Source: Roseicella frigidaeris
Lineage (GTDB): Bacteria; Pseudomonadota; Alphaproteobacteria; Acetobacterales; Acetobacteraceae
DNA: 63,575 nucleotides
Assembly (NCBI RefSeq): GCF_003258945.1
Contig: NZ_QLIX01000026.1
Coordinates: 1 to 63,575 of the forward strand
Direction of reading: 5' to 3'
Part shown: positions 5,092 to 33,743 of the stretch, one piece after another
Position numbering within the stretch: the first letter of the stretch is position 1
Layout: the number at the start of each line of letters is the position of its first letter
Translations under genes and position numbers: made by a program
Notes under the pieces: model-generated
Told to the model about the DNA's origin: nothing
What the model saw: the letters and a program-made list of their open reading frames with translations, nothing else
Databases searched by the model: none

Positions 5092-5202
5092 CATTTGGGC
5101 CGGCGGAAGAACGGGCGCGCGAACAGCTTTCCGTGACCGACGGGCTCCCATCTGGTGAATCGCCCCCAGATCGCCTTCGCTTGGCGCAGGGGAGATTCGC
5201 GC

Positions 5203-5571
5203 ATGCATAGAATGATGATGATCGTGGTGGCCATGGCGGCGCTTCCGGCCGCGGCCTGGGCCGCCGGGGATGCCGAGGCCGGCAAGACGGCCTTCACGCG
5301 CCGCTGCACCGTCTGCCACTCCGTGGCCGAGGGGCAGAACAAGGTCGGGCCCTCGCTGCATGGCGTGGTCGGCCGGCCATCCGGACAGGTGGCGAATTTC
5401 AACTATTCCCCGGCGATGAAGAATGCCGGCAAGACCTGGGACGAGGCCACGCTCGACACCTACCTGACCGATCCCAAGGCGCTGGTTCCGGGCAACCGGA
5501 TGATCCTGGCCGGCATCAAGGACGAGGCCGAGCGGCAGAACATCATCGCCTATCTCGCCACGCAGAAATAG
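5203..5571 (+). CDS. Periplasmic class I c-type cytochrome
   Basis: A 122-residue secreted electron carrier. Residues 1-20 (MHRMMMIVVA to AAAWA) form a Sec signal peptide. The haem site is C35-T-V-C38-H39, and M100 in PGNRMILAG is the likely axial ligand. KVGPSLHGVVGR and FNYSPAMKNAG are typical of the c2/c550 family. GGGGAG lies 8-9 bases before the ATG at 5203. It could accept electrons from XoxG or feed a terminal oxidase, since the alcohol-oxidation locus begins just downstream. Confidence 0.92.
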   Translation: MHRMMMIVVAMAALPAAAWAAGDAEAGKTAFTRRCTVCHSVAEGQNKVGPSLHGVVGRPSGQVANFNYSPAMKNAGKTWDEATLDTYLTDPKALVPGNRMILAGIKDEAERQNIIAYLATQK

Positions 5572-5614
5572 GCCGGGGCGGCGTCCCTTCGCGCCGGCTC
5601 GCGGGGGCCGCTCC

Positions 5615-5654
5615 AGACCACGATCCGCGAACCGGCGTGCGCGGATCGTGGTCT
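5615..5654. terminator. Perfect 15-bp hairpin between convergent genes
   Basis: Arms AGACCACGATCCGCG (5615-5629) and its exact complement (5640-5654) enclose a 10-nt loop. The hairpin sits between the cytochrome c gene and the oppositely oriented DUF2380-like gene. It overlaps the stop codon of the latter, which reads TAGACCACG. It could act as a bidirectional terminator although no T-run is present. Confidence 0.6.
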
Positions 5655-6153
5655 AGTGCCCGGCCTCCGGCCCGGCCAGGAGGCGATGCCGCAGCAGCCA
5701 GGCGATGCCGTGGCGCCAGCTCTCGTCGGTGTTGCCGCGGATATCGGCCTGCCAGGCGCCGCGCGCCTCGCCGGAGGCGGCATCGAGCATGACGATGTGG
5801 ATGCCGAGGATCAGGTTGCTCACCTTGTGCACCACCGTGACGAGGGCGAGCTGCGCGCCGAGCGCCGCGGCCGCCTCGGCGGCGCAGGAGGGGCAGGTGC
5901 CGGGGGCCGGCCCGGCGGCGAGACGCGCGCGCTGCGGCGCGGGATCGACCGGGCTGTAGCGGCCGGACGCCGCCAGCCCCTTCCGCAGCTGCTCGCCGAT
6001 CATGGCGAGGCGGCGCTGCTGCGCGGGCGTCTCGCCCTCGCCGGAGGTGTCGCGCAGCTCGGGATCGAGGACTAGGATGGTCGTGGCGGCCCTGGCCGGC
6101 GCCGCGGCCGACAGCAGGAGCGGCAACCAAGCCGTACGGCGTGTCAGGCGCAT
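5653..6153 (-). CDS. Secreted DUF2380/DUF3280-like protein of the quinoprotein locus
   Basis: The 166-residue product has a signal peptide (about 1-22, ending APARA), then TTILVLDPELRDTSGEG, a start typical of DUF2380-type proteins often seen beside PQQ dehydrogenase genes. A CPSC pair lies mid-protein (GTCPSCAAEA, about 86-95). The C-terminal DESWRHGIAWLLRHRLL is a family-like ending. The molecular role is unknown. It is divergent from the PQQ-associated binding protein, with 68 bases between the two starts, so they probably share a control region. Confidence 0.7.
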   Translation of the reverse strand: MRLTRRTAWLPLLLSAAAPARAATTILVLDPELRDTSGEGETPAQQRRLAMIGEQLRKGLAASGRYSPVDPAPQRARLAAGPAPGTCPSCAAEAAAALGAQLALVTVVHKVSNLILGIHIVMLDAASGEARGAWQADIRGNTDESWRHGIAWLLRHRLLAGPEAGH

Positions 6154-6221
6154 CCGGTCTCCTGTCCTGCTGGCCCTGCCGGCAGGATGCCAGCCCGGAG
6201 CAGAGAAGGGGAGGAAACCAC

Positions 6222-7424
6222 GTGGCGGTCTTGCGCCCTTTCGGCCGGCGGGCCCTGTGGGCCGCCGCCCTCCTCGCTGCCGCGCCGCCAGGCCTCGGGC
6301 GAGCCGAGGAGGCGCCGCCGCTCCGCATCGGCTACCTCGCCCTGAAGGTGCCGCGGCCGCTCCCCGCCTCGCTGGTCGAGCCGCCGCCGAAGGATGAGGG
6401 GGTGCAGGGCGCGCGCCTCGGCCTGCAGGACAATGCGACGACGGGCCGCTTCACCGGCCAGCGCTTCGCCCTCGAGGAGCGCCGCGCCGAGGCGGCGGAG
6501 GAGGTGATGCCGGCGCTGCGCGAGATGCTCGGGCAGGGGCTGCGCCTGGTCGTCGCCGATCTGCCCGCCGACCTGCTGCTGCAGGCCGCCGCCGAGCCGG
6601 GCGCGGTGCTGCTCAACATCGGCGCGCCGGACGATGCGCTGCGCAACGAATCCTGCCGGCGCAACCTGTTCCACGTGCTGCCGAGCCGCGCCATGCTGAC
6701 CGACGCGCTGGCGCAGTACCTGGCGGTGAAGCGATGGCGGACCCTCTTCCTCGCCGCCGGCCCCGGCCCGGGCGACCAGCTCTATGCCGAGGCGATGCGG
6801 CGGGCGGCGAAGAAATTCGGGCTGCGCATCGTGCTCGACAAGCCCTGGACCCACGACCCCGGGGCGCAGCGCACCGATACCGGCCACATGTCCATCGCCG
6901 CCGAGGCGGCGCGCTTCACCCAGGGCGCGCCGGCCTATGACGTCCTGGTGGTCGCCGACGAGGCCGATGACTGGGGCGACAGCCTCGCCTGGCGCACCAC
7001 CGATCCGCGGCCGGTCGCCGGCACCCAGGGGCTGACGCCCACCCTCTGGTCGCCGGTGCACGAGCAATGGGGCGCGACCCAGCTGCAGCGGCGCTTCCGC
7101 GCCCAGGCCGGGCGGGCGATGACGCCGCTCGATCACGCCGCCTGGCTGGCGCTGCGGACGATCGGCGAGGCGGCGGTGCGCAGCCACTCGACCGATCCGG
7201 GTGCGGTGGCCGACTACCTGCGCAGCCCGCAATTCGAGGTCGCCGGCTTCAAGGGCGCCAAGCTTTCCTTCCGCGACTGGGACAACCAGCTGCGCCAGCC
7301 CATCCTGCTGGCCGGGCCGCGCTCGCTGGTCTCGGTCTCGCCGCAGCCTGGCTTCCAGCACCGCACCTCGGAACTCGACACCCTCGGCGCCGACCGGCCG
7401 GAGACGCAATGCCGCGCATCCTGA
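6222..7424 (+). CDS. PQQ-system ABC transporter substrate-binding protein
   Basis: The 400-residue type-1 periplasmic binding protein (Leu/Ile/Val-like fold) resembles the family annotated as the substrate-binding component of a PQQ-dependent alcohol dehydrogenase system. The start is GTG at 6222, with AGGGGAGG just upstream; the upstream ATG at 6141 has no such site. Residues 1-28 are a signal peptide. PLRIGYLALK begins the mature domain and LEERRAEAAEEVMPALREML follows. No cognate permease or ATPase is adjacent. It overlaps the beta-propeller gene by 16 bases. The ligand is unknown. Confidence 0.85.
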   Translation: MAVLRPFGRRALWAAALLAAAPPGLGRAEEAPPLRIGYLALKVPRPLPASLVEPPPKDEGVQGARLGLQDNATTGRFTGQRFALEERRAEAAEEVMPALREMLGQGLRLVVADLPADLLLQAAAEPGAVLLNIGAPDDALRNESCRRNLFHVLPSRAMLTDALAQYLAVKRWRTLFLAAGPGPGDQLYAEAMRRAAKKFGLRIVLDKPWTHDPGAQRTDTGHMSIAAEAARFTQGAPAYDVLVVADEADDWGDSLAWRTTDPRPVAGTQGLTPTLWSPVHEQWGATQLQRRFRAQAGRAMTPLDHAAWLALRTIGEAAVRSHSTDPGAVADYLRSPQFEVAGFKGAKLSFRDWDNQLRQPILLAGPRSLVSVSPQPGFQHRTSELDTLGADRPETQCRAS

Positions 7425-8371
7425 CCCTGCTTGCCCTCCTCGCCCTCCCTCTCGCCGGCGCGCGGGCGGAGACCATCATGGTGTCCAACGAGAAGGACAA
7501 CAGCATCACCGTGCTCGACGGCGCGACGCTGAAGCCGGTGCGCACGGTGAAGGTGGGTGAGCGGCCGCGCGGCATCGTCCTCTCGCAGGATGGCCGCTTC
7601 CTCTATGTCTGCGCCGGCGACAGCGACCGGGTCGATGTCGTCGACACCACGAGCTGGAAGGTGGTGCGCCACCTGCCGAGCGGCTCCGACCCGGAGCGGG
7701 CGGCGCTGCACCCGGATGGCCGCCGCCTCTACGTCGCCAACGAGGACGACAACCTCGTCACCGTGGTCGATGTCGAGCGCGGCGTCGTGCTGCAGGAGAT
7801 CCCGGTCGGCGTCGAGCCGGAGGGGATGGGGCTGAGCCCGGACGGGCGCTACGTGGTCAACACCTCCGAGACCACCAACATGGCGCATGTCATCGACACC
7901 GGCAGCGGCAAGATCATCGCCAACATCCTGGTCGGCGCCCGGCCGCGCTACGCGCTGTGGCAGCCGGACGGCAAGCGCTTCTGGGTCTCCTCCGAGATCG
8001 GCGGCACGCTCTCGCTGATCAGCGCCGAGGACTGGAAGGTGGTGGCGCAGGTCGGCTTCAGCATCCCGGGCGTGCCGCGCGAGGCGATCCAGCCCGTCGG
8101 CATGGCCTTCTCGCGCGATGCCGGCAAGCTCTTCGTCGCCCTCGGCCCCGCCAACCGCGTCGCCGTGGTCGATGTCGCGACGCGCGAGGTGCAGCGCATG
8201 CTGCTGGTCGGCCAGCGGGTCTGGAACCTCGCCCTCTCGGCGGATGGCACCCGGCTCTACACCACCAACGGCGTCAGCAACGACCTCTCGGTCCTCGATA
8301 TCGAGGCGATGCGGGTGACCCGCAGCGTGCCGGTCGGGCAGTCGCCCTGGGGGGTGGTGGTGAAGCCGTGA
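7409..8371 (+). CDS. PQQ-associated secreted beta-propeller protein
   Basis: A 320-residue YVTN/NHL-type beta-propeller with signal peptide (1-20, ending AGARA). Repeats such as VTVLDGATLKPVRTVKVGERP, LYVANEDDNLVTVVDVERG and LYTTNGVSNDLSVLDIEAM recur at about 40-residue spacing, giving roughly seven blades. It matches the PQQ-dependent catabolism-associated propeller family. It probably acts in the periplasm as a docking or assembly factor; no catalytic residues stand out. It starts inside the end of the preceding gene and its stop overlaps the next GTG start, so the three genes are one transcription unit. Confidence 0.88.
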   Translation: MPRILTLLALLALPLAGARAETIMVSNEKDNSITVLDGATLKPVRTVKVGERPRGIVLSQDGRFLYVCAGDSDRVDVVDTTSWKVVRHLPSGSDPERAALHPDGRRLYVANEDDNLVTVVDVERGVVLQEIPVGVEPEGMGLSPDGRYVVNTSETTNMAHVIDTGSGKIIANILVGARPRYALWQPDGKRFWVSSEIGGTLSLISAEDWKVVAQVGFSIPGVPREAIQPVGMAFSRDAGKLFVALGPANRVAVVDVATREVQRMLLVGQRVWNLALSADGTRLYTTNGVSNDLSVLDIEAMRVTRSVPVGQSPWGVVVKP

Positions 8372-8952
8372 GGCTGCCCCGGATCGCTGCCCTGCTGTTG
8401 CTGCTGCCCGTGGCGGCGGCGGCGCAGCCGCATCCGGACCCCGACTGGCCCTGCGTGCAGCGCTACGTGCCGGAGATCGGCGCCGCGGCGCTCTGGCCCG
8501 AGGCGCCGGGCGGCGACTGGCAGGACGACCCCGGGGTGGCGGCGCTGGTCGGGCGCATCGCCCCGCGCCCGGTCGAGGCCGAGCAGGGCCTCGCCGCGAT
8601 CCGCGACTTCGCCGCGCCGCTCGATGCCGCGGCGCGGCGGCGCCTGCTGCCGCTCGCCTTCCGCGGGGTGCTGGAGGAGACCAACCGGCAGCGCGACGCC
8701 GTCATCGACCAGATCCGCCGCTATGCCCGGCGGCAGCACGACCTCGCCGGGCGGGTGCGCGAGCTGGAGGCGGCGCTGCGCGCGGCGCCGCCCCCGGCCC
8801 GCGAGGAGCTGGAGCAGCGCCGCTTCTTCGCGGCCAAGACCTATGCCGATGCCGAGCGCATGCTGCGCTATGCCTGCGAGGTGCCGGTGCGGCTGGAAGG
8901 GCGGCTCGGCGCCTATGCGCGGGCGATGCAGGCGGCGATGCCGCAGGGCTGA
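8368..8952 (+). CDS. Small secreted helical protein of the quinoprotein cluster
   Basis: A 194-residue protein starting at GTG 8368 in a GTGA overlap with the propeller gene. It has a signal peptide (MRLPRIAALLLLLPVAAAAQ) and one early Cys (DWPCVQRY). A long helical stretch rich in Arg, Glu and Ala (about 105-170) looks like a coiled coil. I recognise no catalytic motif. Translational coupling suggests it works with the propeller and binding protein in the periplasm, perhaps as a scaffold. Function unknown. Confidence 0.75.
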   Translation: MRLPRIAALLLLLPVAAAAQPHPDPDWPCVQRYVPEIGAAALWPEAPGGDWQDDPGVAALVGRIAPRPVEAEQGLAAIRDFAAPLDAAARRRLLPLAFRGVLEETNRQRDAVIDQIRRYARRQHDLAGRVRELEAALRAAPPPAREELEQRRFFAAKTYADAERMLRYACEVPVRLEGRLGAYARAMQAAMPQG

Positions 8953-9001
8953 TCCCGGCTGGGGTGCTGCCAACGGCCGTTGCCGGTGACCCATCGACGG
9001 C

Positions 9002-9100
9002 CCCCTCAGGCGCCGGGCGGTTTGCTCCGCAAACCTCGGCTTCGCGCCACTCGCCGCGGCGCCCGTTCGGGCGCTCGGCATGAAGGAAGCCTTCATGCCG
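9002..9100. repeat. Composite three-hairpin repeat element, copy 1
   Basis: Hairpins at 9019-9035 (GGTTTGC/GCAAACC), 9059-9074 (GCGCCC/GGGCGC) and 9076-9100 (CGGCATGAAGG/CCTTCATGCCG) are joined by linkers CTCAGGCGCCGGGCG and GGCTTCGCGCC. The same linkers in the same order occur at 52687-52810 with different stem sequences. It lies between the convergent ends of the helical protein gene and the CXXCW gene, where it could serve as a bidirectional terminator. Confidence 0.8.
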
Positions 9101-9106
9101 TTGGTA

Positions 9107-9649
9107 TCACTCCCAGCCGGGCGCGGGGTGCAGCACCTCGGTCGGCAGGCCGGCCGCCTCCCAGCCATCGGTGCCGTCGCGGTACCACAGGACCTGCCGC
9201 CAGCCCCAGGCGGCCGCGCGCCGGGCGGCGTTCCAGCTCATCCAGCATTCGGCGAGGCAATAGAAGACGACCGGACGCCCGCGATCGCCATCCGTCGCCG
9301 CCTCGAGCCTGCGGCGGAACCAGGCCTCGGCGCCGGGCGGCAGGTCGCCGCGGCCCAGCCCGGGCAGCCAGAGGCTGCCCGGGATGCCGCGGCGCGGGCT
9401 CGGCCGCCAGAGCGCCTCCGGCGGCAGGCCCTCCGGCCGGCGCGGCGCCGCCAGCACGTCGATCCAGACCGCGCCCTGCCGTTCGAACAACAGCGCCGCC
9501 TCCGCCGTGTCGATGGCGCGGCCGCCCGGCACCGTCTCCGGCGTCGGGGCCCGGTAGTCCTGCATCCGGTAGCCCTCGGGCGCAGGCGTCGGCATGGGCG
9601 CGGCGGCGGCGAGGAGCGCGGCGGCAAGCAGCTGCGGGCGCCGCCTCAC
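9107..9649 (-). CDS. PQQ-associated CXXCW-motif rhodanese-like protein
   Basis: The 180-residue exported protein starts at GTG 9649, overlapping the xoxJ stop as GTGA. A signal peptide covers about 1-20. The fold is rhodanese-like: AVWIDVLAAPRRP early, then FYCLAECWMSWNAA with C131 and C135 followed by Trp, the hallmark of the PQQ-dependent catabolism-associated CXXCW family. GWRQVLWYRDGTDGWEAAGLP is the rhodanese-like end. It may handle thiol or persulfide chemistry for the quinoprotein relay, in line with the SoxYZ-like and metallohydrolase genes nearby. The exact reaction is not established. Confidence 0.88.
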   Translation of the reverse strand: MRRRPQLLAAALLAAAAPMPTPAPEGYRMQDYRAPTPETVPGGRAIDTAEAALLFERQGAVWIDVLAAPRRPEGLPPEALWRPSPRRGIPGSLWLPGLGRGDLPPGAEAWFRRRLEAATDGDRGRPVVFYCLAECWMSWNAARRAAAWGWRQVLWYRDGTDGWEAAGLPTEVLHPAPGWE

Positions 9650-10464
9650 GGCGCCTGCAGCCTGCCCTCGGCGTCCAGCAGCGGCACGCCGTAGTCGCGC
9701 AGGATGCCGTCGATCTCCGCCTGGTGCTCGCGGATCGCCGCGTTGATGCGGCGGCGCCACTCGGTCTCCTCGGCGCGCACGCCCATGGTGATGCGATAGT
9801 CCATCCGCGCCACGCCCGGCTCGGTCGGCAGGGCGCGCATCGCCAGGGGCAGGCCCTGCACCGTGATCTGGTAGCCGGCGATCGGGCCCCAGACCAGGGC
9901 CGCATCCAGCTCGCCGGCGGCCACCGCGCGCAGCAGCTCCGCCCCCGGCGCCTCGTGCCGCGTGTCGACGGCGAGCGGGAAGAAGCGGGTGTTGCCGATC
10001 AGCCGGTTGCGCAGCAGCAGGTCGGTCGGCGGCGTGCGGGCGATGGCGCCGAGCCGCAGCGCCCGCATCGCCGGGTCGTCCAGCCGCTCCGGCACCGGAT
10101 GGTCGCGGCGGAAGGCGATGACATAGGTGGTGTGGTAGTAGGGATTGGTGTTCTGCAACAGCTCGTCGCCGGCGACCGTGCCCATCACCAGGTCGCAGCG
10201 CCCGGCCCGCAGCGTGTTGCGCACGAAGCCCTGCACCTGCGGGAAGAAGACGTAGTCGAGGCGGCGGTCGAGGGCCTGCGCCAGCAGTGCCGCGATCCGG
10301 TTCTCGAAGCCCTCGCCGCGCTCGTTGGAGAAGGGCAGGTTGGCCGGGTCGGCGCAGACGCGCAGCGCATCCGTCGCCACGAGGTCGCCGGTCTCGGCCG
10401 CGGCGGGCCGCGCCAGCAGCGCGGCCAGGGCGAGGGCCAGACCGGGGACGGCCCGCCGCCTCAT
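9646..10464 (-). CDS. xoxJ: Quinoprotein dehydrogenase-associated periplasmic binding protein XoxJ
   Basis: A 272-residue SBP_bac_3-type protein with signal peptide (1-23). DALRVCADPANLPFSNERGEGFENRIAALLA is the classic opening of the XoxJ/MoxJ family. RCDLVMGTVAGDELLQNTNPYY and AALVWGPIAGY follow. XoxJ/MxaJ proteins are thought to assist activation of the methanol dehydrogenase in the periplasm rather than to import solutes. It overlaps xoxG by 4 bases upstream and the CXXCW gene downstream, so the order is xoxF-xoxG-xoxJ-CXXCW. Confidence 0.9.
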   Translation of the reverse strand: MRRRAVPGLALALAALLARPAAAETGDLVATDALRVCADPANLPFSNERGEGFENRIAALLAQALDRRLDYVFFPQVQGFVRNTLRAGRCDLVMGTVAGDELLQNTNPYYHTTYVIAFRRDHPVPERLDDPAMRALRLGAIARTPPTDLLLRNRLIGNTRFFPLAVDTRHEAPGAELLRAVAAGELDAALVWGPIAGYQITVQGLPLAMRALPTEPGVARMDYRITMGVRAEETEWRRRINAAIREHQAEIDGILRDYGVPLLDAEGRLQAP

Positions 10465-10886
10465 TTCCTCGGCATCCGCTCCGGCCGGCCGCGGCCGAGC
10501 GCGCCGTCGGAGCGCGCCTTCAGATAGGCGTAGATGTCGTCGAGATAGGTGACGACGTCCTCGACATGGCCGAAGGAGGGCATGACGTTCTGCTGCGAGG
10601 AGGTGACGTTCTGCCGGCCGTTGATGACGGTGTCGGCGAACTGCTCATGCGTCAGGTGCTTGAGGGATTCGGTGAGGTTCGGCGCGTAGCTGCTGCCGGC
10701 CCCGTCCGGCCCGTGGCATTGCAGGCAGGAATTCCCGTAGCGGCGGTAGCCGTTGTAGACGGCCTGGTCGACCTTGCCGTCCTCGACATGGTAGGGCCGC
10801 TCGTAGTCGTCCTTCGCGTCGTCGGCGGCCAGGGCGGGGCCGGTCAGGGCGGCAAGGATGCAGGTGGAGACAAGCAAGGCTTTCAT
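10461..10886 (-). CDS. xoxG: c-type cytochrome XoxG, electron acceptor of XoxF
   Basis: A 141-residue cytochrome with signal peptide (1-20, ending PALA), haem motif C54-L-Q-C57-H58 and axial M102 in NVMPSFG. YERPYHVEDGKVD and NGRQNVTSSQQNVMPSFG fit the methanol-metabolism cytochrome family paired with lanthanide enzymes. It should take electrons from the PQQ enzyme to the respiratory chain. The ATG at 10886 follows CAGGAG. A perfect 13-bp hairpin separates it from xoxF, which may keep its level below that of xoxF. Confidence 0.9.
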   Translation of the reverse strand: MKALLVSTCILAALTGPALAADDAKDDYERPYHVEDGKVDQAVYNGYRRYGNSCLQCHGPDGAGSSYAPNLTESLKHLTHEQFADTVINGRQNVTSSQQNVMPSFGHVEDVVTYLDDIYAYLKARSDGALGRGRPERMPRK

Positions 10887-10900
10887 GGGGAAGCTCCTGG

Positions 10901-10929
10901 GAGGCCGGCGCCCGGCGGGCGCCGGCCTC
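10901..10929 (-). terminator. 13-bp hairpin between xoxF and xoxG
   Basis: GAGGCCGGCGCCC (10901-10913) pairs perfectly with 10917-10929 around a 3-nt loop. It lies in the 66-base gap between the xoxF stop and the xoxG start in the same transcript. With no U-run it is more likely a partial terminator or an mRNA 3'-end stabiliser than a full stop. Confidence 0.6.
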
Positions 10930-10952
10930 GGTATCACGGCAGCCGGCTCGGC

Positions 10953-12764
10953 TCAGTTCGGCAGGGCGAAGACGGTCAGGACGCCGCCGAGCTGGGTGTA
11001 GTCGGACAGCGCCTTGTAGGCGCCGACCGCGCCGAGGCCGTCGCTGTCGCCCCCGAGGCCGGCCGCCATGCCGATGCCGGCCCAGCCGCCGACGCCCGAG
11101 AGCACCGCGATGTACTGCTTGCCCTTGTGGGTGAAGGTGTTGACGTTGCCGATGATGCCGGAGGGCGTGCGGTAGCTGAACAGCTCCTTGCCGTCCTTCA
11201 CGTCGACCGCCTTCAGGTAGCCCTCGAGCGTGCCGTAGAAGACGACGTCACCGGCCGTCGCCAGCGCCCCCGACCAGACCGAGAAACGCTCGGGCTTCGA
11301 CCAGAGGATCTTCCCCTTGCCGGCGTCCCAGGCGATGAAATTCCCCATGTTGTCCGACCCCTTCGGCGGGAACATGGAGAGCGTGGCGCCGACATAGGGC
11401 TGGCCGGCGGTGTAGGAGACGCGGAAGGGCTCGTAGTCCATGCAGACATGGTTGGTCGGCACGTAGAACATGCCGGTCTTCGGCGAGTAGGCGGCCGGCT
11501 GCTGGTCCTTGCTGCCGAGCGCGGCCGGGCAGATGTTCTGGGTGTTGGTGTCCTCGCCGCCGGCGGCGGTGGAGAATTCGCGCACCACCTGCGGCCGGCC
11601 GGTCTCCATGTCGACATGGCTGGCCCAGTTCACCGCGGGATCGTATTTCTGCGCCACCAGCAGGTCGCCGTTCTCGCGGTTCAGCGTATAGGCGAAGCCG
11701 TTGCGGTCCATGTGGACCAGGGCCTTGGCGACCCGCTTGTCACCGACCTGGATGTTGTCGGCGAGGATCATCTCGTTGACGCCGTCGTAGTCCCATTCGT
11801 CGTGCGGCGTCATCTGGTAGACCCAGCGCGCCATGCCGGTGTTGGCGTCGCGGGCGAAGATCGTCATCGACCACTTGTTGTCGCCGGGCCGCTGCGCCGG
11901 GTTCCAGGTGCCGGGATTGCCGGAGCCGTAGTAGACGAGGTTCAGCTCCGGGTCATAGCTGATCCAGCCCCAGGTGCCGCCGCCGCCGATCTTCCACTGG
12001 TCTCCCTCCCAGGTCTTGAGGGAGCTGTTGGCGCCGACCGGCTTGCCCATGTCGGTGGTCTTCTGCGGGTCGAACAGGATGTCGCTGTCGGGGCCCACCG
12101 AATAGGCGCGCCAGATCTGCTTGCCGTCCTTGAGGCCGTAGGCGGTGACATGCGCGCGGACGCCGAACTCGCCGCCGGAGATGCCGACCAGCACCTTGTC
12201 GCCGACGACCAGCGGCGACATGGTCGAGGTCTCGCCCTTCGCCGGGTCGCCGTTCTTGATCTTCCAGACCTCCTTGCCGGTCTTGGCGTCGAGCGCGACC
12301 AGGGTGGTGTCGGCCTGGCTGAGGATGATCTTGCCATCGGCATAGGCGGGGCCGCGATTGACCGTGTCGCAGCACATGACGCCGATGACGCTCGGGTCCT
12401 GCGTCGGCTCGTAGCGCCAGATCACCCGGCCGGGGTTGTTCAGGTCGAGCGCGAAGACCCGGTTGGGGAAGGGCGTGTGGATGAACATCACGTCGCCGAT
12501 CACCAGCGGGCCGCCCTCATGGCCGCGCAGCACGCCGGTCGAGAACTGCCAGGTGGGGCGCAGCTGGCCGACATTCTCGCGGGTGATCTGGTTCAGCGAG
12601 CTGTAGCGCCACGACGCGTAATTGCCGTTGGCCATGGCCCATTGGTTCGGGTCCTTCTGCAGCCGCAGCAGCTCGTCGTTGGCCGAGGCCCCAGGGAATA
12701 CGGCGCTGGCTCCAACGGTGGCCGAAACGGCCAGCGCGATCGCAAGGGCTGCGCGTCGCAACAT
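10953..12764 (-). CDS. xoxF: Lanthanide-dependent PQQ methanol/alcohol dehydrogenase XoxF
   Basis: The 603-residue periplasmic quinoprotein oxidises methanol or other primary alcohols. The signal peptide is about 1-28 (start [17 protein letters not shown] upstream). It is an eight-bladed propeller with the vicinal disulfide C131-C132 ([10 protein letters not shown]). In [13 protein letters not shown]325 is the catalytic Asp and D327 is the extra Asp that marks lanthanide rather than calcium enzymes. Length and motifs are typical of XoxF, probably clade 5 (inferred). No mxaF or PQQ biosynthesis genes are visible here. A 135-codon open leader upstream in frame is not convincing coding sequence. 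Confidence 0.97.
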
Positions 12765-13119
12765 CTTGTCGTTCCTCCATCGACCTGCGGGCCGCACGAG
12801 ACGGTCTCGCAACTGTTCCGCCTGCCGGCAGCCCCGCTGCCGGCCGGTGGGCGGAGGTTTCCGCCCTCCGCTGACAGCTATTTGTGCCAGTTCGAGTCCG
12901 GACAAGCGGCCAGCGGCACCGGCACAGCGCACGACTTCGACAACTGCCGGGGCGCCGCGGGCGCTGGACGGCGGAGGGATGCGCCCCATGTTCAGGATAA
13001 ACTGCCGCAAATGGCGGGAAATCATAGAGATGCATCGAGGAATACTGCGCTGCACAAGAAATGGTTCAGGGCGGGCGCCCGGCCCGACTTGGACTAAAGA
13101 CGGAGAGGGGGATGCCAGG
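12765..13119. other. Divergent control region between xoxF and a secreted-protein operon
   Basis: This 355-base stretch has no supportable gene. It must contain the xoxF promoter (leftward) and that of the operon starting at 13165 (rightward). I could not place confident -35/-10 boxes or a two-component operator in it. Frames that cross it are read-through of flanking genes. Confidence 0.5.
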
Positions 13120-13164
13120 CTGGAGGATGCCAAGCTGGAGGACGTCAGGGTGGAGGACGCCACG
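13120..13164 (+). promoter_or_regulatory. Three tandem 15-nt GGAGGA repeats before a GTG start
   Basis: Units start at 13120, 13135 and 13150, each of the form (C/G)TGGAGGA followed by TGCCAAG, CGTCAGG or CGCCACG. The third unit supplies GGAGG about 8 bases before the GTG at 13165. Three ribosome-binding-site copies in phase (45 nt) upstream of one start is unusual. It could be a tandem-duplication leader or a set of alternative starts. Confidence 0.55.
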
Positions 13165-13851
13165 GTGACCGGACGCCGCCGGCTGCTGGGACTTGCCGCG
13201 GCGACGCCGCTGCTCCTCGCGGCGGAGGAGCCGTCCCCGCCGCTCTCCCCCGCCCAGCGGCTGCTGTTCGAGACGCCGCACCTGGCCGGGCTGCATGCGC
13301 CGCTCCGCCTCGTCTACGATTTCCGCCGCGAGGAGGAAGGCCGGGAGCCAGTCGGCGACGTCATCCGGCTCGCCGTGCGGGAGGGCGAGGCGCCGGGCCG
13401 CTTCGACGTGACGCCGGAATTCCTCACCGGCCCGCGCGCCCTGCATTACCCGCCGGCGCCGGGCTTCCGCGGCAACCCGCTGCTGCTCTTCGCCCTCGAC
13501 CGCGAGGCGCGGGAGCTGAGCGCGGCAACCGGCGGCTCGACGGTATGGTTCCGCAACCGCATCAGGCAGGGCTTCGTCGACGCGGCCGCGATGCAGCGCA
13601 TCACGCTGCCCTTCGAGGGGCGCCCGGTGCCGGCGACCGAGGTCGTGCTGCAGCCCTTCGGCGGCGAGCGGCGGGCCCGCCGCTACCAGGCCATGCGGCT
13701 GCGCTTCGTGCTCGCCGAGGCCGTCCCGGGCTGGATCCACTCGATCGGCAGCGAGGTGCCCGCGGCGGACGGATCGGGCGATGGGCATGGCGCGGTGCGC
13801 GAGGCGATCGTCTTCGCCCGCGCCGAGGCCCTGCCGACGGCCGCGCCGTGA
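13165..13851 (+). CDS. Secreted protein of unknown function, divergent from xoxF
   Basis: A 228-residue product (GTG start at 13165, preceded by GGAGG). [21 protein letters not shown] looks like a twin-arginine or Sec export signal. The mature part includes [33 protein letters not shown] and [15 protein letters not shown], suggesting a mostly beta-structured periplasmic domain. I do not recognise the family. GTG at 13150 is an alternative start. Its stop overlaps the next GTG, and the operon continues into the metallohydrolase and SoxYZ-like genes, implying a role in the quinoprotein relay. Confidence 0.75.
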
Positions 13852-14177
13852 GGCGCCTGCTCCTCGCCGCGCTGCTGCTGCCGGCGGCGGCCCTGGCGCA
13901 TGACTATCCGACGGTGGCGCGCGCGGATTACGTGCTCGGCTGCATGGCCGCGAACGGCAACACCCGGCTGGCGCTCGAGCGCTGCGCCTGCAGCATCGAC
14001 GCCATCGCCGAGCAACTGCCCTATGACAGCTACGAGGCCGCCGACACGGCGCTGCGCATGCAGGCCGGCAATCTCGGCGAGCGCGGCGCCGAGTTCCGCG
14101 ACGTGCCGCAGGTCCGGGCGGTGATCGAGGCCTTGCGGCGGGCCCAGGCGGAGGCGACGCTGCGCTGCTTTCCCTGA
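13848..14177 (+). CDS. Small secreted cysteine-containing protein of the quinoprotein locus
   Basis: A 109-residue product in a GTGA overlap with the gene before it. The signal peptide ends near PAAALA. The mature part is about 92 residues with four Cys: GCMAANG, ERCACSI and the last CFP. The spacing C..C-x-C..C could support a redox or metal site. It has a helical C-terminal half (VRAVIEALRRAQAEATLR). Not recognised, but the strict coupling and export signal suggest a small periplasmic partner of the relay. Confidence 0.75.
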   Translation: MRRLLLAALLLPAAALAHDYPTVARADYVLGCMAANGNTRLALERCACSIDAIAEQLPYDSYEAADTALRMQAGNLGERGAEFRDVPQVRAVIEALRRAQAEATLRCFP

Positions 14178-14229
14178 GGATGCAGCGGATGGCCAGGCGC
14201 GACCGGGCCGGCGCGGGGAGGAGGGCCGG

Positions 14230-15180
14230 ATGGCGGAACGGCGGTCGGGGCGCCTGACGCGGCGGCAGGGCCTCGGGCTCGGCCTCGCCGCCAGCCTCGC
14301 CACCCGCCTGGCCGACGCGGCCCGGCCAGCCGGGGCGGCGGTGGAGGTCGCGCCCGGCCTCTTCGTCCTGCCCGGGGTGGCGGAGGACGCCTCCGCGGCC
14401 AATCTCGGCGCCATCGCCAATACCGGCTTCATCCTCGGCCGCGACGCGGTCGCGGTCGTGGACCCCGGCGGCAGCCTCGCGCATGGGCAGCGGCTGCGTG
14501 CGGCGGTGGCCGCCGCGACCCGGCAGCCGATCCGCTACCTGATCCTCACCCATGCGCATCCCGACCATGTCATGGGGGCGGCCGCCTTCGCCGATTGCGG
14601 CGCGGCGGTGATCGGCCATGCGCGCTTGCCCCTCGCCCTGGCGCAGCGCGGCCCCTACGACCTGCCCATGCTGGCGCGCAGCCTGGGGGCGGCCGCGGCG
14701 GGCAGCGGCGCGCTGGCGCCGACCCAGTTGGTGACGGAGCGGCTGGCGCTCGATCTCGGCGGCCGCGAGCTCGTGCTGCAGGCGCATCCGCCGGCGCATA
14801 CCGATCAGGACCTGACCGTGCTCGACGCCGCGACGCGGACGCTCTGGACCGGCGACCTGCTCTTCGTCGAGCGCATCCCGGCGCTGGAGGGCAGCCTCGC
14901 CGGCTGGCTCGCGGTGCTGGAGCGGCTGCGGGCGCTGCCGGCCGGCCAGGCCGTGCCGGGCCACGGGCCGCCCAGCGTGCCCTGGCCCGAGGCGGCCGAG
15001 CCGCTGGGCCGCTACCTCCTGGCGCTGCGCGACGGCACCCGCGCCGCCCTCCGGGCCGGCATCGGCATCGCCGAGGCGCCCGACCGCGTCGCCGTCGTGG
15101 AAGCCCGCCACTGGCGCCTCGCCGAGGCCTATCACGGCCGCAACGTCACCGCCGCCTACCGCGAACTGGAATGGGAGTAG
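14230..15180 (+). CDS. Quinoprotein relay system zinc metallohydrolase
   Basis: A 316-residue metallo-beta-lactamase-fold protein. An N-terminal export signal (RRQGLGLGLAASLATRLADAA, twin-arginine-like) precedes the domain. The zinc motif is H108-A-H110-P-D112-H113 in LILTHAHPDHVMG, with later ligands likely in PPAHTDQDLTV and AVPGHGPP. It resembles the SoxH-related family found beside PQQ dehydrogenases. SoxH-like enzymes may hydrolyse thioester or persulfide adducts. It is followed 5 bases later by the SoxYZ-like carrier, which could be its substrate. The start follows GGGGAGGAGGGCCGG. Confidence 0.9.
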   Translation: MAERRSGRLTRRQGLGLGLAASLATRLADAARPAGAAVEVAPGLFVLPGVAEDASAANLGAIANTGFILGRDAVAVVDPGGSLAHGQRLRAAVAAATRQPIRYLILTHAHPDHVMGAAAFADCGAAVIGHARLPLALAQRGPYDLPMLARSLGAAAAGSGALAPTQLVTERLALDLGGRELVLQAHPPAHTDQDLTVLDAATRTLWTGDLLFVERIPALEGSLAGWLAVLERLRALPAGQAVPGHGPPSVPWPEAAEPLGRYLLALRDGTRAALRAGIGIAEAPDRVAVVEARHWRLAEAYHGRNVTAAYRELEWE

Positions 15181-15185
15181 CCGCC

Positions 15186-16025
15186 ATGCCCCGCGCCATC
15201 GCCCGCCGGCCCATCCTCTCCGGCCTGCTGCCCGGCGCCGCCGCCCTGGTCGCCGGCCGGGCAGGGGCCCAGGGCATCGAGCCGGCGGAGGCGCCGCGCC
15301 GGGCCGAGCGCTGGCGCGACCTGAAGCAGGCAATCCTCGGCGACCGCCCGACCGAGCCCGCCGGCCCGGCGCTCGACCTGAGCGCGCCGGCGCGGGCGCA
15401 GGATGCGGCGCTGGTGCCGGTCGCCATCGCCCTCTCGGCCGCGGCGGCGCCGGCGGCGCGCGCCCTCTACCTCGTGGTCGACGAGAACCCGCTGCCGCTC
15501 GCCGCGGTGTTCCGGGCCGGCCAGCCCGGGGCGCTGCGGGCGCTGACGGCGCGCATCCGCGTCGATGCCTATACCTACCTGCATGCGGTGGCCGAGATGG
15601 CGGATGGGCGGCTGCTGGAGACGGCGCGCTTCGTGAAGGCGGCCGGCGGCTGCTCCGCTCCCATCGCCGGCGATCTGGAGGCGGCGCGGCAGCGCATGGG
15701 GCGGATGCGCATGAGCCTGCCGGAGGGGCCGCCGGCGCCGGGGCGCGCGGTGCCGGTGCAGGTGGCGGTCAGCCATCCCAATACCTCCGGCCTGCAGATC
15801 GACCAGCTCACCCGGCTCTCGATCCCGGCCGAGTACATCCGGGCGCTGCGCGTGACCTATGCCGGGGCGGAGGTGCTGCGCATCGAATCCGAGATCGCCA
15901 TCGCCGAGAACCCGACCTTCGGCTTCACGCTCGCGGGGGCGCCGGGTGGCGAGCTGCAGGTCGTCGCGGCCGACAACCGCGACCGGCGCTTCGAGGGGCG
16001 CTGGACCCTCGGCGCCGCCGGCTGA
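15186..16025 (+). CDS. Quinoprotein dehydrogenase-associated SoxYZ-like fusion carrier
   Basis: The 279-residue exported protein fuses a SoxY-like domain (about 40-160) and a SoxZ-like domain (about 175-275, from PVQVAVSHPNTSGLQ). The SoxY half ends with a Cys in VKAAGGCSAP (C156). In true SoxY the carrier cysteine sits in a mobile GGCGG tail that carries sulfur intermediates, so C156 is the obvious candidate for a covalent carrier. Start ATG at 15186 after GGGAGTAG. The fusion form is the one linked to quinoprotein loci, not to thiosulfate oxidation. What it carries is unknown. Confidence 0.9.
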   Translation: MPRAIARRPILSGLLPGAAALVAGRAGAQGIEPAEAPRRAERWRDLKQAILGDRPTEPAGPALDLSAPARAQDAALVPVAIALSAAAAPAARALYLVVDENPLPLAAVFRAGQPGALRALTARIRVDAYTYLHAVAEMADGRLLETARFVKAAGGCSAPIAGDLEAARQRMGRMRMSLPEGPPAPGRAVPVQVAVSHPNTSGLQIDQLTRLSIPAEYIRALRVTYAGAEVLRIESEIAIAENPTFGFTLAGAPGGELQVVAADNRDRRFEGRWTLGAAG

Positions 16026-16207
16026 CCCGGCCCGCACGGCCGCGGGTTGCACATCGGCCGGGCGGCATAAATCCTGGATTCGCGGGCGCGTCCGGCGGCA
16101 TCCTTGTGCCGTGCAACATGGACGGCCCCCCGCGGCCCTTCGGCAGGCGGCGTCCGCGATGCCGCCGCCCGCCCAGGCCGCCCCCCCCGACGAGGGACCC
16201 TAGCACC

Positions 16208-16411
16208 GTGATCGAACTCGTGATGGTCGTCTGCCTCGCCGCCGCCCCCGCCCAGTGCCGCGAGGAACGGCCGATCCTCGCGGCCTTGTCCATGATGGCC
16301 TGCGCCACCCAGGGGCAGATGGTCGCGGCGCGCTGGCTCTCGGAACACCCGGCCTTCACGCTCAGCCGCTGGCGCTGCGAGCTGAACCGGCCGCGGCAGG
16401 AACGGATCTAG
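16208..16411 (+). CDS. Small conserved hypothetical protein (67 aa)
   Basis: GTG start at 16208. The 67-residue product has a hydrophobic start (VIELVMVVCLAAAPAQC) and then MACATQGQMVAARWLSEHP and LSRWRCE. I recall similar small proteins in other alphaproteobacteria, but their function is unknown. Three Cys (C9, C17, C32) plus one near the end may be structural if it is exported. Its stop codon TAG is the first three bases of the TAGAGC repeat copy at 16408. It lies 180 bases after the SoxYZ-like gene and may have its own promoter. Confidence 0.75.
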   Translation: MIELVMVVCLAAAPAQCREERPILAALSMMACATQGQMVAARWLSEHPAFTLSRWRCELNRPRQERI

Positions 16412-33022: not shown

Positions 33023-33743
33023 GCCGCTGCTGGCGCTGCGCGGGGTCGGCGCCGGCTATGGCGAGGCGGCGGTGCTGCACGACATCGCGCTCGAGGTCGC
33101 GCCGGGCGAGGCGGTGGCGCTGCTCGGCCGCAACGGCACCGGCAAGACCACGCTGCTCACCACCATCCTGGGCGCCGGGCCGCGGCTGCGCGCCGGCACG
33201 ATCCGCTTCGCCGGCCGGGCGATCGAGCGACTGCCGAGCGAGCGGCGGGCCGCCCTCGGCCTCGGCTGGGTGCCGCAGGAGCGCAACATCTTCCGCTCCC
33301 TCACGGTGGAGGAGAACCTGACCGCCGTGGCCCGGCCCGGCCCCTGGACGCTGGCGCGGGTCTTCGCCCTCTTCCCGCGCCTGGCCGAGCGGCGGCGCAA
33401 CCCCGGCGGCGCGCTCTCGGGCGGCGAGCAGCAGATGCTCGCCATGGGCCGGGCGCTGATGCTGAACCCGCGCCTGCTGCTGCTCGACGAGCCGACCGAG
33501 GGGCTGGCGCCGGTGATCGTGCAGGGGCTGCTCGCCGCCATCGCGCGCATGGTGCGCGAGGAGGGGCTGGCGGCGATCCTGGTCGAGCAGCATGCGCGGC
33601 TGGCGCTGCCGGTCACCGACCGCGTCGTCATCCTCGATCGCGGCCGGATCGTCCATGCCGGGCCGAGCGCCGCCCTGCTCGCGGCGCCGGAGGTGGCGGA
33701 GCGCCATCTCGGGCTGCATCATGCCGCCACGCCGGATCCCTGA
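33015..33743 (+). CDS. Liv-type ABC transporter ATP-binding protein (LivF family)
   Basis: A 242-residue ATPase partner of LivG. Walker A is LLGRNGTGKTTLLTTILG, WVPQERNIFRSLTVEENL is the LivF Q-loop region, GGALSGGEQQMLAMGRALM is the signature and RLLLLDEPTEGLAPVI is Walker B, with VEQHARLAL carrying the switch His. It is the last transporter gene. The MetE-like gene starts 25 bases later and is probably in the same transcript. Confidence 0.93.
   Translation: MAEPLLALRGVGAGYGEAAVLHDIALEVAPGEAVALLGRNGTGKTTLLTTILGAGPRLRAGTIRFAGRAIERLPSERRAALGLGWVPQERNIFRSLTVEENLTAVARPGPWTLARVFALFPRLAERRRNPGGALSGGEQQMLAMGRALMLNPRLLLLDEPTEGLAPVIVQGLLAAIARMVREEGLAAILVEQHARLALPVTDRVVILDRGRIVHAGPSAALLAAPEVAERHLGLHHAATPDP

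Follow-up and report, generated by a model that had tools for sequence, protein, structure and literature searches.

Genes of the xoxF locus

We analyzed a 63,575-nucleotide stretch of DNA from Roseicella frigidaeris (contig NZ_QLIX01000026.1 of assembly GCF_003258945.1), hereafter the window, in which open reading frames and curated family models delineate an XoxF methanol-oxidation cluster at positions 5155-16025. XoxF, a pyrroloquinoline quinone (PQQ) methanol dehydrogenase (10953..12764; TIGR03075, 738 bits against a cut-off of 480), is encoded on the reverse strand together with the c-type cytochrome XoxG (10461..10886), the periplasmic binding-protein-like XoxJ (9646..10464; TIGR03871, 285 bits, cut-off 212) and a rhodanese-like protein (9107..9649; TIGR03865, 208 bits, cut-off 128). 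The forward strand encodes two unnamed secreted proteins, U2 (13165..13851) and U3 (13848..14177), a SoxH-like zinc metallohydrolase of the metallo-beta-lactamase (MBL) fold (14230..15180; TIGR04559, 351 bits, cut-off 280), a fused SoxYZ-like carrier (15186..16025; TIGR04557, 230.6 bits, cut-off 140) and, on the other side of xoxF, a third unnamed secreted protein, U1 (8368..8952). The open reading frames named in an earlier reading of this DNA, hereafter the original prediction, are all present at the positions given there, and its list of xoxF, xoxG, xoxJ, rhodanese-like, metallohydrolase and SoxYZ-like carrier genes is correct. What is new here is the recognition of U1, U2 and U3 as conserved, unnamed secreted families that accompany XoxF.

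The window enzyme carries a vicinal cysteine pair, C131-C132, and the motif D325-Y-D327 (in WDYDG), that is, an extra Asp two residues past the catalytic Asp, which is a mark of the lanthanide type (PMC8546591). The Cys pair together with DYD or DFD recurs in all 90 XoxF homologues scoring above 800 bits. Judged by its TIGR03075 score, the additional Asp and the Cys pair, the window enzyme is a lanthanide-type XoxF. In the literature, XoxG is described as the electron acceptor of XoxF and XoxJ as an XoxF-binding chaperone. With 143.3 bits XoxG stays below the TIGR03874 cut-off of 161.75, and we name it by its position and its resemblance to other XoxG proteins. The starts given for XoxG (10886) and the rhodanese-like protein (9649) are putative; the open frames extend to 10937 and 9760, respectively.

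We compared the window with 80 named xoxF loci, the top-ranked among 580 confirmed stretches and thus a set that leans toward XoxF proteins close to the window's. Homologues of XoxG occur in 72 of these loci, XoxJ in 63, the rhodanese-like protein and the metallohydrolase in 44 each, U3 in 40, U1 in 39, the carrier in 33 and U2 in 20. Ten Bradyrhizobium loci (L112, L114, L121, L122, L129, L139, L146, L152, L153 and L158) also hold a second quinoprotein gene on the reverse strand, whose product has DWD as its metal motif and lacks an aligned vicinal Cys pair.

Unnamed secreted families that track XoxF

What are U1, U2 and U3? They match no Pfam or NCBIfam family (the NCBIfam scan covered all family members for U2 only), and comparison with PDB sequences and PHROGs returned nothing meaningful, the two best U1 matches being designed helical proteins. 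To build their profiles, we used homologues from 18 fetched genome regions and from the 80 named loci. A secretion-like hydrophobic stretch is present at the N-terminus of all 48 U3, all 44 U1 and 24 of the 26 U2 sequences. The 28-row alignment of U3 contains four invariant cysteines (C32, C46, C48 and C107), the 25-row alignment of U1 contains two, within the invariant W27-P28-C29 and at C170, and no cysteine is conserved in the alignment of U2; by profile comparison, U3 is unrelated to U1 and U2. The U2 and U3 genes, which overlap by 4 bases in the window, are adjacent and on one strand in each of the 19 named loci with both, and U3 is present in 19 of the 20 loci that hold U2. The families are also found outside the Alphaproteobacteria. 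The named loci with U3 include those of Enterovibrio, Grimontia, Spongiihabitans and Granulosicoccaceae, all of them gammaproteobacteria, and in the betaproteobacterium Azoarcus KH32C the order xoxF-G-J-U2-U3-hydrolase-carrier forms a single-strand run. Near that run (L289, 17869-18606) lies a gene annotated as (5-formylfuran-3-yl)methyl phosphate synthase, a methanofuran-type cofactor gene.

Co-occurrence across xoxF genomes was one of the checks suggested with the original prediction, and we find it to be well beyond chance. Our class sample comprises 142 genomes, mostly one per family; in 29 of them a PQQ alcohol dehydrogenase is encoded (E 1e-100). XoxF, defined here as a match above 800 bits, is present in nine (in G061 as a fragment), and 20 have other PQQ dehydrogenases only, G105 (693 bits), G174 and G171 being counted among the latter. 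U3 was found in 7/9 of the XoxF genomes, in 0/20 of those with other PQQ dehydrogenases (the weak match in G105, 3e-4, is not counted) and in 1/113 of those with neither. The corresponding figures are 6/9, 0/20 and 1/113 for U1 and 4/9, 0/20 and 1/113 for U2. Fisher tests gave 1.4e-9 for U3 and 5.6e-8 for U1; these ignore relatedness, in a sample spread over families. The carrier, above its cut-off, is in 7/9, 1/20 and 3/113, respectively; one of these matches (G121, 149 bits) holds an internal stop and is probably a split SoxY-SoxZ pair.

A sample of 80 genomes from the family of Methylocella tundrae gave a similar picture. XoxF, counted above 840 bits with the addition of a fragment in G224 and the exclusion of G226, G231 and G237 (672-717 bits), is in 22 genomes; 24 genomes have U3, 21 have the two together, and 23 of the 24 with U3 also hold the carrier. 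XoxF and U3 lie on different draft contigs in G178, G218 and G220 and more than 300 kb apart in G194 and G254, and thus close linkage alone does not explain their co-occurrence. In a search of 72,556 plasmid records, 126 contain U3 (E 1e-5) and 131 contain XoxF (E 1e-180). Compared at the level of genera, the counts for U3 and XoxF are nearly identical, for example 75 and 74 in Sinorhizobium, 10 and 10 in Azospirillum and 8 and 8 in Paraburkholderia, but Methylocystis has three records for XoxF and is missing from the ten genera given for U3. Within the 54 loci that have at least 8 kb on both flanks, U3 accompanies 19 of the 24 with a carrier. Distance correlations with XoxF (r of 0.71 for U3, 0.76 for U1, 0.73 for XoxJ, 0.82 for XoxG, 0.65 for SoxYZ and 0.46 for the propeller) have no species-tree control and are not used as proof. 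We conclude that U1, U2 and U3 track XoxF and not PQQ dehydrogenases in general.

The original prediction listed at least four small secreted proteins as unassigned. For U1-U3 this stands in the sense that neither Pfam nor NCBIfam has a model for these conserved families; by gene order, U2 and U3 appear to be families already met in another organism, as described below, and the fourth protein does not look specific to XoxF. This protein, U4, is a small Cys-containing protein (16208..16411, forward strand; 28 of the 80 named loci) with no NCBIfam family, and its frame (16106-16411) has only a sub-threshold Pfam match. U4 occurs on 152 of the 72,556 plasmid records, 119 of them from Sinorhizobium, and we set it aside as an XoxF-specific partner given that its plasmid genus counts differ from those of XoxF; some of these records may be other replicons of xoxF-bearing strains, which makes this comparison weaker than one of whole genomes. 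U4 looks like a member of a wider family and is probably a neighbour rather than a part of the system.

Probable correspondence with orf6 and orf7 of Methylorubrum extorquens

Two homologous loci (L272 and L273, in genomes G225 and G185) appear to connect U2 and U3 to genes with a phenotype. In both, the order is xoxF, xoxG, xoxJ, folK, folB, U3, U2, pqqE, pqqCD, pqqB, and in G225 U2 directly adjoins pqqE with a 4-base overlap. In the XoxF search, two or three enzymes of each of these genomes score above 980 bits and a further one scores about 745 bits. In Methylorubrum extorquens AM1, xoxF1, xoxG and xoxJ are META1p1740, 1741 and 1742, orf6 and orf7 are 1746 and 1747, and pqqE, pqqCD and pqqB are 1748, 1749 and 1750 (PMC7391723). 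The gap between xoxJ and U3 holds three genes in G185, in agreement with the AM1 numbering, and in G225 it showed only the two fol genes. Because the gene order of these loci matches AM1 1740-1750, U3 is most likely orf6 and U2 orf7, an assignment that is made in homologous loci and not in the window itself.

Both genes emerged from a transposon selection for XoxF1 function, and on methanol with La the deletion of orf6 lowers growth to 0.03 per hour and that of orf7 to 0.08 per hour after a 9 h lag, compared with 0.16 per hour for the reference; according to the authors, the requirement for orf6 and orf7 on methanol appears only with La (PMC7391723). Our literature search, in which subscription papers were mostly outside coverage, returned no paper joining orf6 or orf7 to the wider U3 and U2 families. 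Small hypothetical proteins of about 110-130 residues have been noted beside xoxF3 in Acidobacteria (PMC10875860).

A proposed SoxYZ-like relay

The carrier, the hydrolase and the rhodanese-like protein score above the cut-offs of TIGR04557 (quinoprotein-associated SoxYZ-like carrier), TIGR04559 (quinoprotein relay zinc metallohydrolase 2) and TIGR03865 (PQQ-associated CXXCW protein), families that NCBIfam already names after quinoproteins or PQQ. Cys156 of the carrier, within GGCSA, is invariant in 53/53 homologues, in keeping with its earlier nomination as the candidate carrier cysteine. Each of the seven metal ligands of the hydrolase (H108, H110, D112, H113, H190, D209 and H245) is conserved in 55 or 56 of the 56 homologues. 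The CXXCW spacing ascribed to the rhodanese-like protein was wrong: despite the family name, the motif is C168-x3-C172-W173 (numbered from the open reading frame), and C-x3-C-W is found in 50/50 homologues. The carrier's relatives among PDB sequences are SoxY and SoxZ, and the hydrolase has three matches, 8d2z and chlorothalonil dehalogenase (6uxu) being better than the third, hydroxyacylglutathione hydrolase (2xf4, 7e-7). An RR-plus-hydrophobic pattern resembling a twin-arginine (Tat) signal is mixed, for example in 29/57 hydrolases and 21/52 carriers, and we claim no Tat export. Persulfide or thiol transfer by this trio is a putative role, suggested by the fold names and by one invariant Cys.

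Is the trio a Sox thiosulfate-oxidation system? We rejected this role: SoxB was not found in the window genome, a 98% complete draft, and within the class sample SoxB is present in only 3/11 carrier-positive and 2/9 XoxF genomes. The window carrier shares domain homology and a GGC arm with the Sox carrier SoxY plus SoxZ. It differs in being fused and in having its arm, with GGCSA, internal, whereas Sox SoxY has a terminal GGCGG arm. The trio also reaches beyond XoxF. In L068 it lies beside a lower-scoring DxD quinoprotein and in L077 the carrier alone does so, and because these quinoproteins are accompanied in this way without U1-U3, the trio is the broader part of the system. On our best reading, it serves lanthanide-type quinoproteins as an auxiliary thiol relay, apart from Sox thiosulfate oxidation.

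Fused SoxYZ-like genes in L069 (G159) and L078 (G109, contig 22) have no quinoprotein match within 17-20 kb. Some xoxF clusters hold two different fused SoxYZ-like carriers (L287, a Sagittula stellata plasmid, and L108, L131 and L144), and one of the Sagittula carriers adjoins an SRPBCC protein and a lactonase-like propeller.

The association of this relay with quinoproteins is not new; in addition to the NCBIfam names, it is covered by published work. In Pseudomonas putida the rhodanese, SoxYZ and SoxH trio (PP_2666, PP_2677 and PP_2678) is conserved with lanthanide-type enzymes and has AM1 homologues, META1p1703-1705, and disulfide formation, cofactor stabilisation and PQQ protection have been offered as its function (PMC12997753). 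SoxYZ fusions near soxH and xoxF have been reported, with speculation about thiosulfate protection (PMC11237559), and relay genes have been noted beside a PQQ enzyme (PMC11582611). In addition, soxH is drawn near xoxF5 in a roseobacter (PMC5934484).

The PQQ transport module and flanking genes

U1 lies within 300 bases of a PedC-type permease in 22 of the 23 named loci that have U1, the propeller and the permease, and we therefore place it with the PQQ ATP-binding cassette (ABC) module. In the window this module is represented by a PQQ-system ABC substrate-binding protein (6141..7424, forward strand, start uncertain; TIGR03863, 471.6 bits, cut-off 413.6) and a PQQ-associated beta-propeller protein (7409..8371, forward strand; TIGR03866, 459 bits, cut-off 287). 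These two were thought to complete the set. The transport module is in fact incomplete: no PedC-type permease was found anywhere in the window, and of the module's ATPase only a 34% relative, at 33030-33686. A PedC-type permease is encoded elsewhere in the same genome (G000:C10:17933-18688, 406 bits). The permease that usually stands beside U1 is absent from the propeller-U1 junction at window position 8368.

The cluster begins with a cytochrome c2/c-550-like c-type cytochrome (5155..5571, forward strand; PF00034, 1.1e-9; NF043008, 121 bits, below the cut-off of 240) and a secreted DUF3280 protein (5653..6153, reverse strand; PF11684, 2e-37; 28 of the 80 named loci). The Roseomonas marmotae cluster also contains a 'cytochrome c family protein', and in Sagittula one adjoins xoxF. 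Promoter, terminator and Rfam scans gave no signal above chance. The window is Roseomonas-like: when XoxF and U3 are searched, Pseudoroseomonas, Craurococcus, Dankookia and Roseomonas marmotae are among its top named matches.

Comparison with related systems

Among the closest arrangements, that on plasmid p1318-3 of Roseomonas marmotae has the same genes as the window, with U1-U4 annotated as hypothetical protein; the carrier, DUF3280 and U4 are placed elsewhere, and an ABC ATPase and permease stand between the propeller and U1. The ped cluster of P. putida KT2440 (PP_2666, PP_2677, PP_2678, pedA1A2BC and pedFGH) shares with the window the rhodanese-like protein, SoxYZ fusion, SoxH-like hydrolase, propeller, binding protein, a PedG/XoxJ-like protein and a lanthanide-type quinoprotein (PMC12997753). 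Its enzyme, however, is PedH and not XoxF, the ped gene table names no counterpart of U1-U3 (PMC12997753), and the window cluster lacks pedB and pedC. The AM1 xoxF1 region (META1p1740-1750 and 1703-1705) shares xoxF-xoxG-xoxJ, orf6/orf7 (by gene order) and trio homologues nearby (PMC7391723, PMC12997753); there the trio is about 35 gene numbers away, and in the window the pqq genes are not beside U2-U3. Finally, SoxYZ-S4 of Thiodiazotropha and bathymodiolin symbionts is a fused SoxYZ near soxH, xoxF and formate dehydrogenase genes whose main hosts are sulfur oxidisers (PMC11237559), in contrast to the window genome, in which no SoxB was found.

Discussion

How might these proteins serve XoxF? 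Starting from the conservation, co-occurrence, XoxF specificity and gene order described above, we propose a cluster of three modules. The first, xoxF-xoxG-xoxJ with the rhodanese-like protein, would supply the enzyme, its electron acceptor and an XoxF-binding chaperone. The second would consist of U2-U3 beside the metallohydrolase and the SoxYZ-like carrier. U2 and U3 most likely work together in the periplasm, where they would specifically support the maturation or stability of XoxF and be required for its full activity. Cys156 of the carrier could accept a sulfur species or else a thiol intermediate arising at the vicinal disulfide site of the quinoprotein; the two-cysteine rhodanese-like protein and Cys156 would pass this species on, and the hydrolase, together with the rhodanese-like protein, would unload and release it. 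The third module would be PQQ-cluster transport, comprising DUF3280, the binding protein, the propeller and U1, with the permease encoded elsewhere in the genome. This combination of U2/U3 maturation factors and an auxiliary thiol relay is our best explanation of the whole, and we judge it about equally likely to be right or wrong. The original prediction, that the set looks like an assembly or protection system for a periplasmic quinoprotein, is supported: the genes co-occur with XoxF and have that appearance.

Several observations weigh against this explanation. XoxF is found without U3 in G042, G057 and G180, and U3 without a detected XoxF in G184 and G233 and with only a weaker relative in G226. 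G164 (1.4 Mb; L066 and L067) has the carrier, the hydrolase, U1, U2 and U3 on one contig and no PQQ alcohol dehydrogenase was found in it; an assembly gap or a loss of xoxF would account for the missing enzyme. Five of the 16 carrier-bearing fetched regions have no match to the XoxF profile (L066, L069 and L078, of 17-20 kb, and L071 and L075, which are short contigs). U3 is also present in 9 of the 30 full-flank loci that have no carrier nearby, so that the modules are separable and U3 keeps company with XoxF also where no relay lies close by. As to the relay itself, P. putida trio mutants showed minimal effects without lanthanides (PMC12997753), and Table 1 of the AM1 screen lists orf6 and orf7 and none of the relay genes META1p1703-1705 (PMC7391723). 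Because of this last difference, we infer that U2 and U3 are core factors and that the relay is conditional.

From sequence, the guarding of PQQ, the setting of the vicinal disulfide and the handling of aldehyde cannot be told apart, and other explanations must be weighed. The trio might protect XoxF by scavenging sulfite, thiosulfate or persulfides that would otherwise add to its PQQ. Such protection has been proposed for the trio (PMC12997753) and, for thiosulfate, for SoxYZ-S4 (PMC11237559), and it fits the invariant Cys156, the independence from SoxB and, if we assume that the screen used no sulfur stress, the absence of the trio from the AM1 table. Two features are left unexplained, U2/U3 and the restriction to lanthanide-type enzymes, since Ca-type enzymes use PQQ too; we regard this explanation as possible, with the balance somewhat against it. 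Alternatively, U1-U3 could be lanthanide- or PQQ-handling proteins instead of folding factors. The overlap of U2 with pqqE, the position of U1 beside the PQQ-system permease and the specificity of all three for XoxF point in this direction; no acidic EF-hand-like motif was seen by eye in their alignments and no family match was obtained, and on the whole we find the idea rather unlikely. Less likely still is a role of the trio in forming or repairing the vicinal Cys-Cys ring that sits above PQQ. That ring is reported to be important for electron transfer (PMC8546591, PMC12997753), and the pair is present in every XoxF homologue above 800 bits as well as in the lower-scoring quinoproteins of L068 and L077. 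Species that lack the trio, P. aeruginosa for example, have the same pair in their Ca-type enzymes (PMC12997753), and a feature so constant has no discriminating power. Finally, a substrate relay in which Cys156 carries aldehyde as a thiohemiacetal or thioester for cleavage by the hydrolase, which the 2xf4 match and our reading of the NCBIfam name 'relay system' would favour, is improbable, given that glutathione-linked formaldehyde genes near the clusters of Roseomonas marmotae and Sagittula could already serve and that the trio in L068 adjoins a non-XoxF quinoprotein.

Returning to the three-module cluster, we advance more tentatively the broader proposal that U1-U3, as undescribed periplasmic families, with the carrier, the SoxH-like hydrolase and the rhodanese-like protein, make up a pathway devoted to the biogenesis of lanthanide methanol dehydrogenase across Alpha-, Beta- and Gammaproteobacteria. 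U2 and U3 would form the centre of this pathway, and the part of the thiol relay would be to make the PQQ-disulfide site or to guard it. U1-U3 are tied to XoxF, and two of these families apparently have a lanthanide-only phenotype, which turns entries annotated as 'hypothetical protein' into a testable shortlist of maturation factors. These candidates occur in tractable hosts, for example M. extorquens and S. meliloti, whose strain 1021 has the complete set on pSymB (L288), and U1-U3 may aid the heterologous production of lanthanide enzymes.

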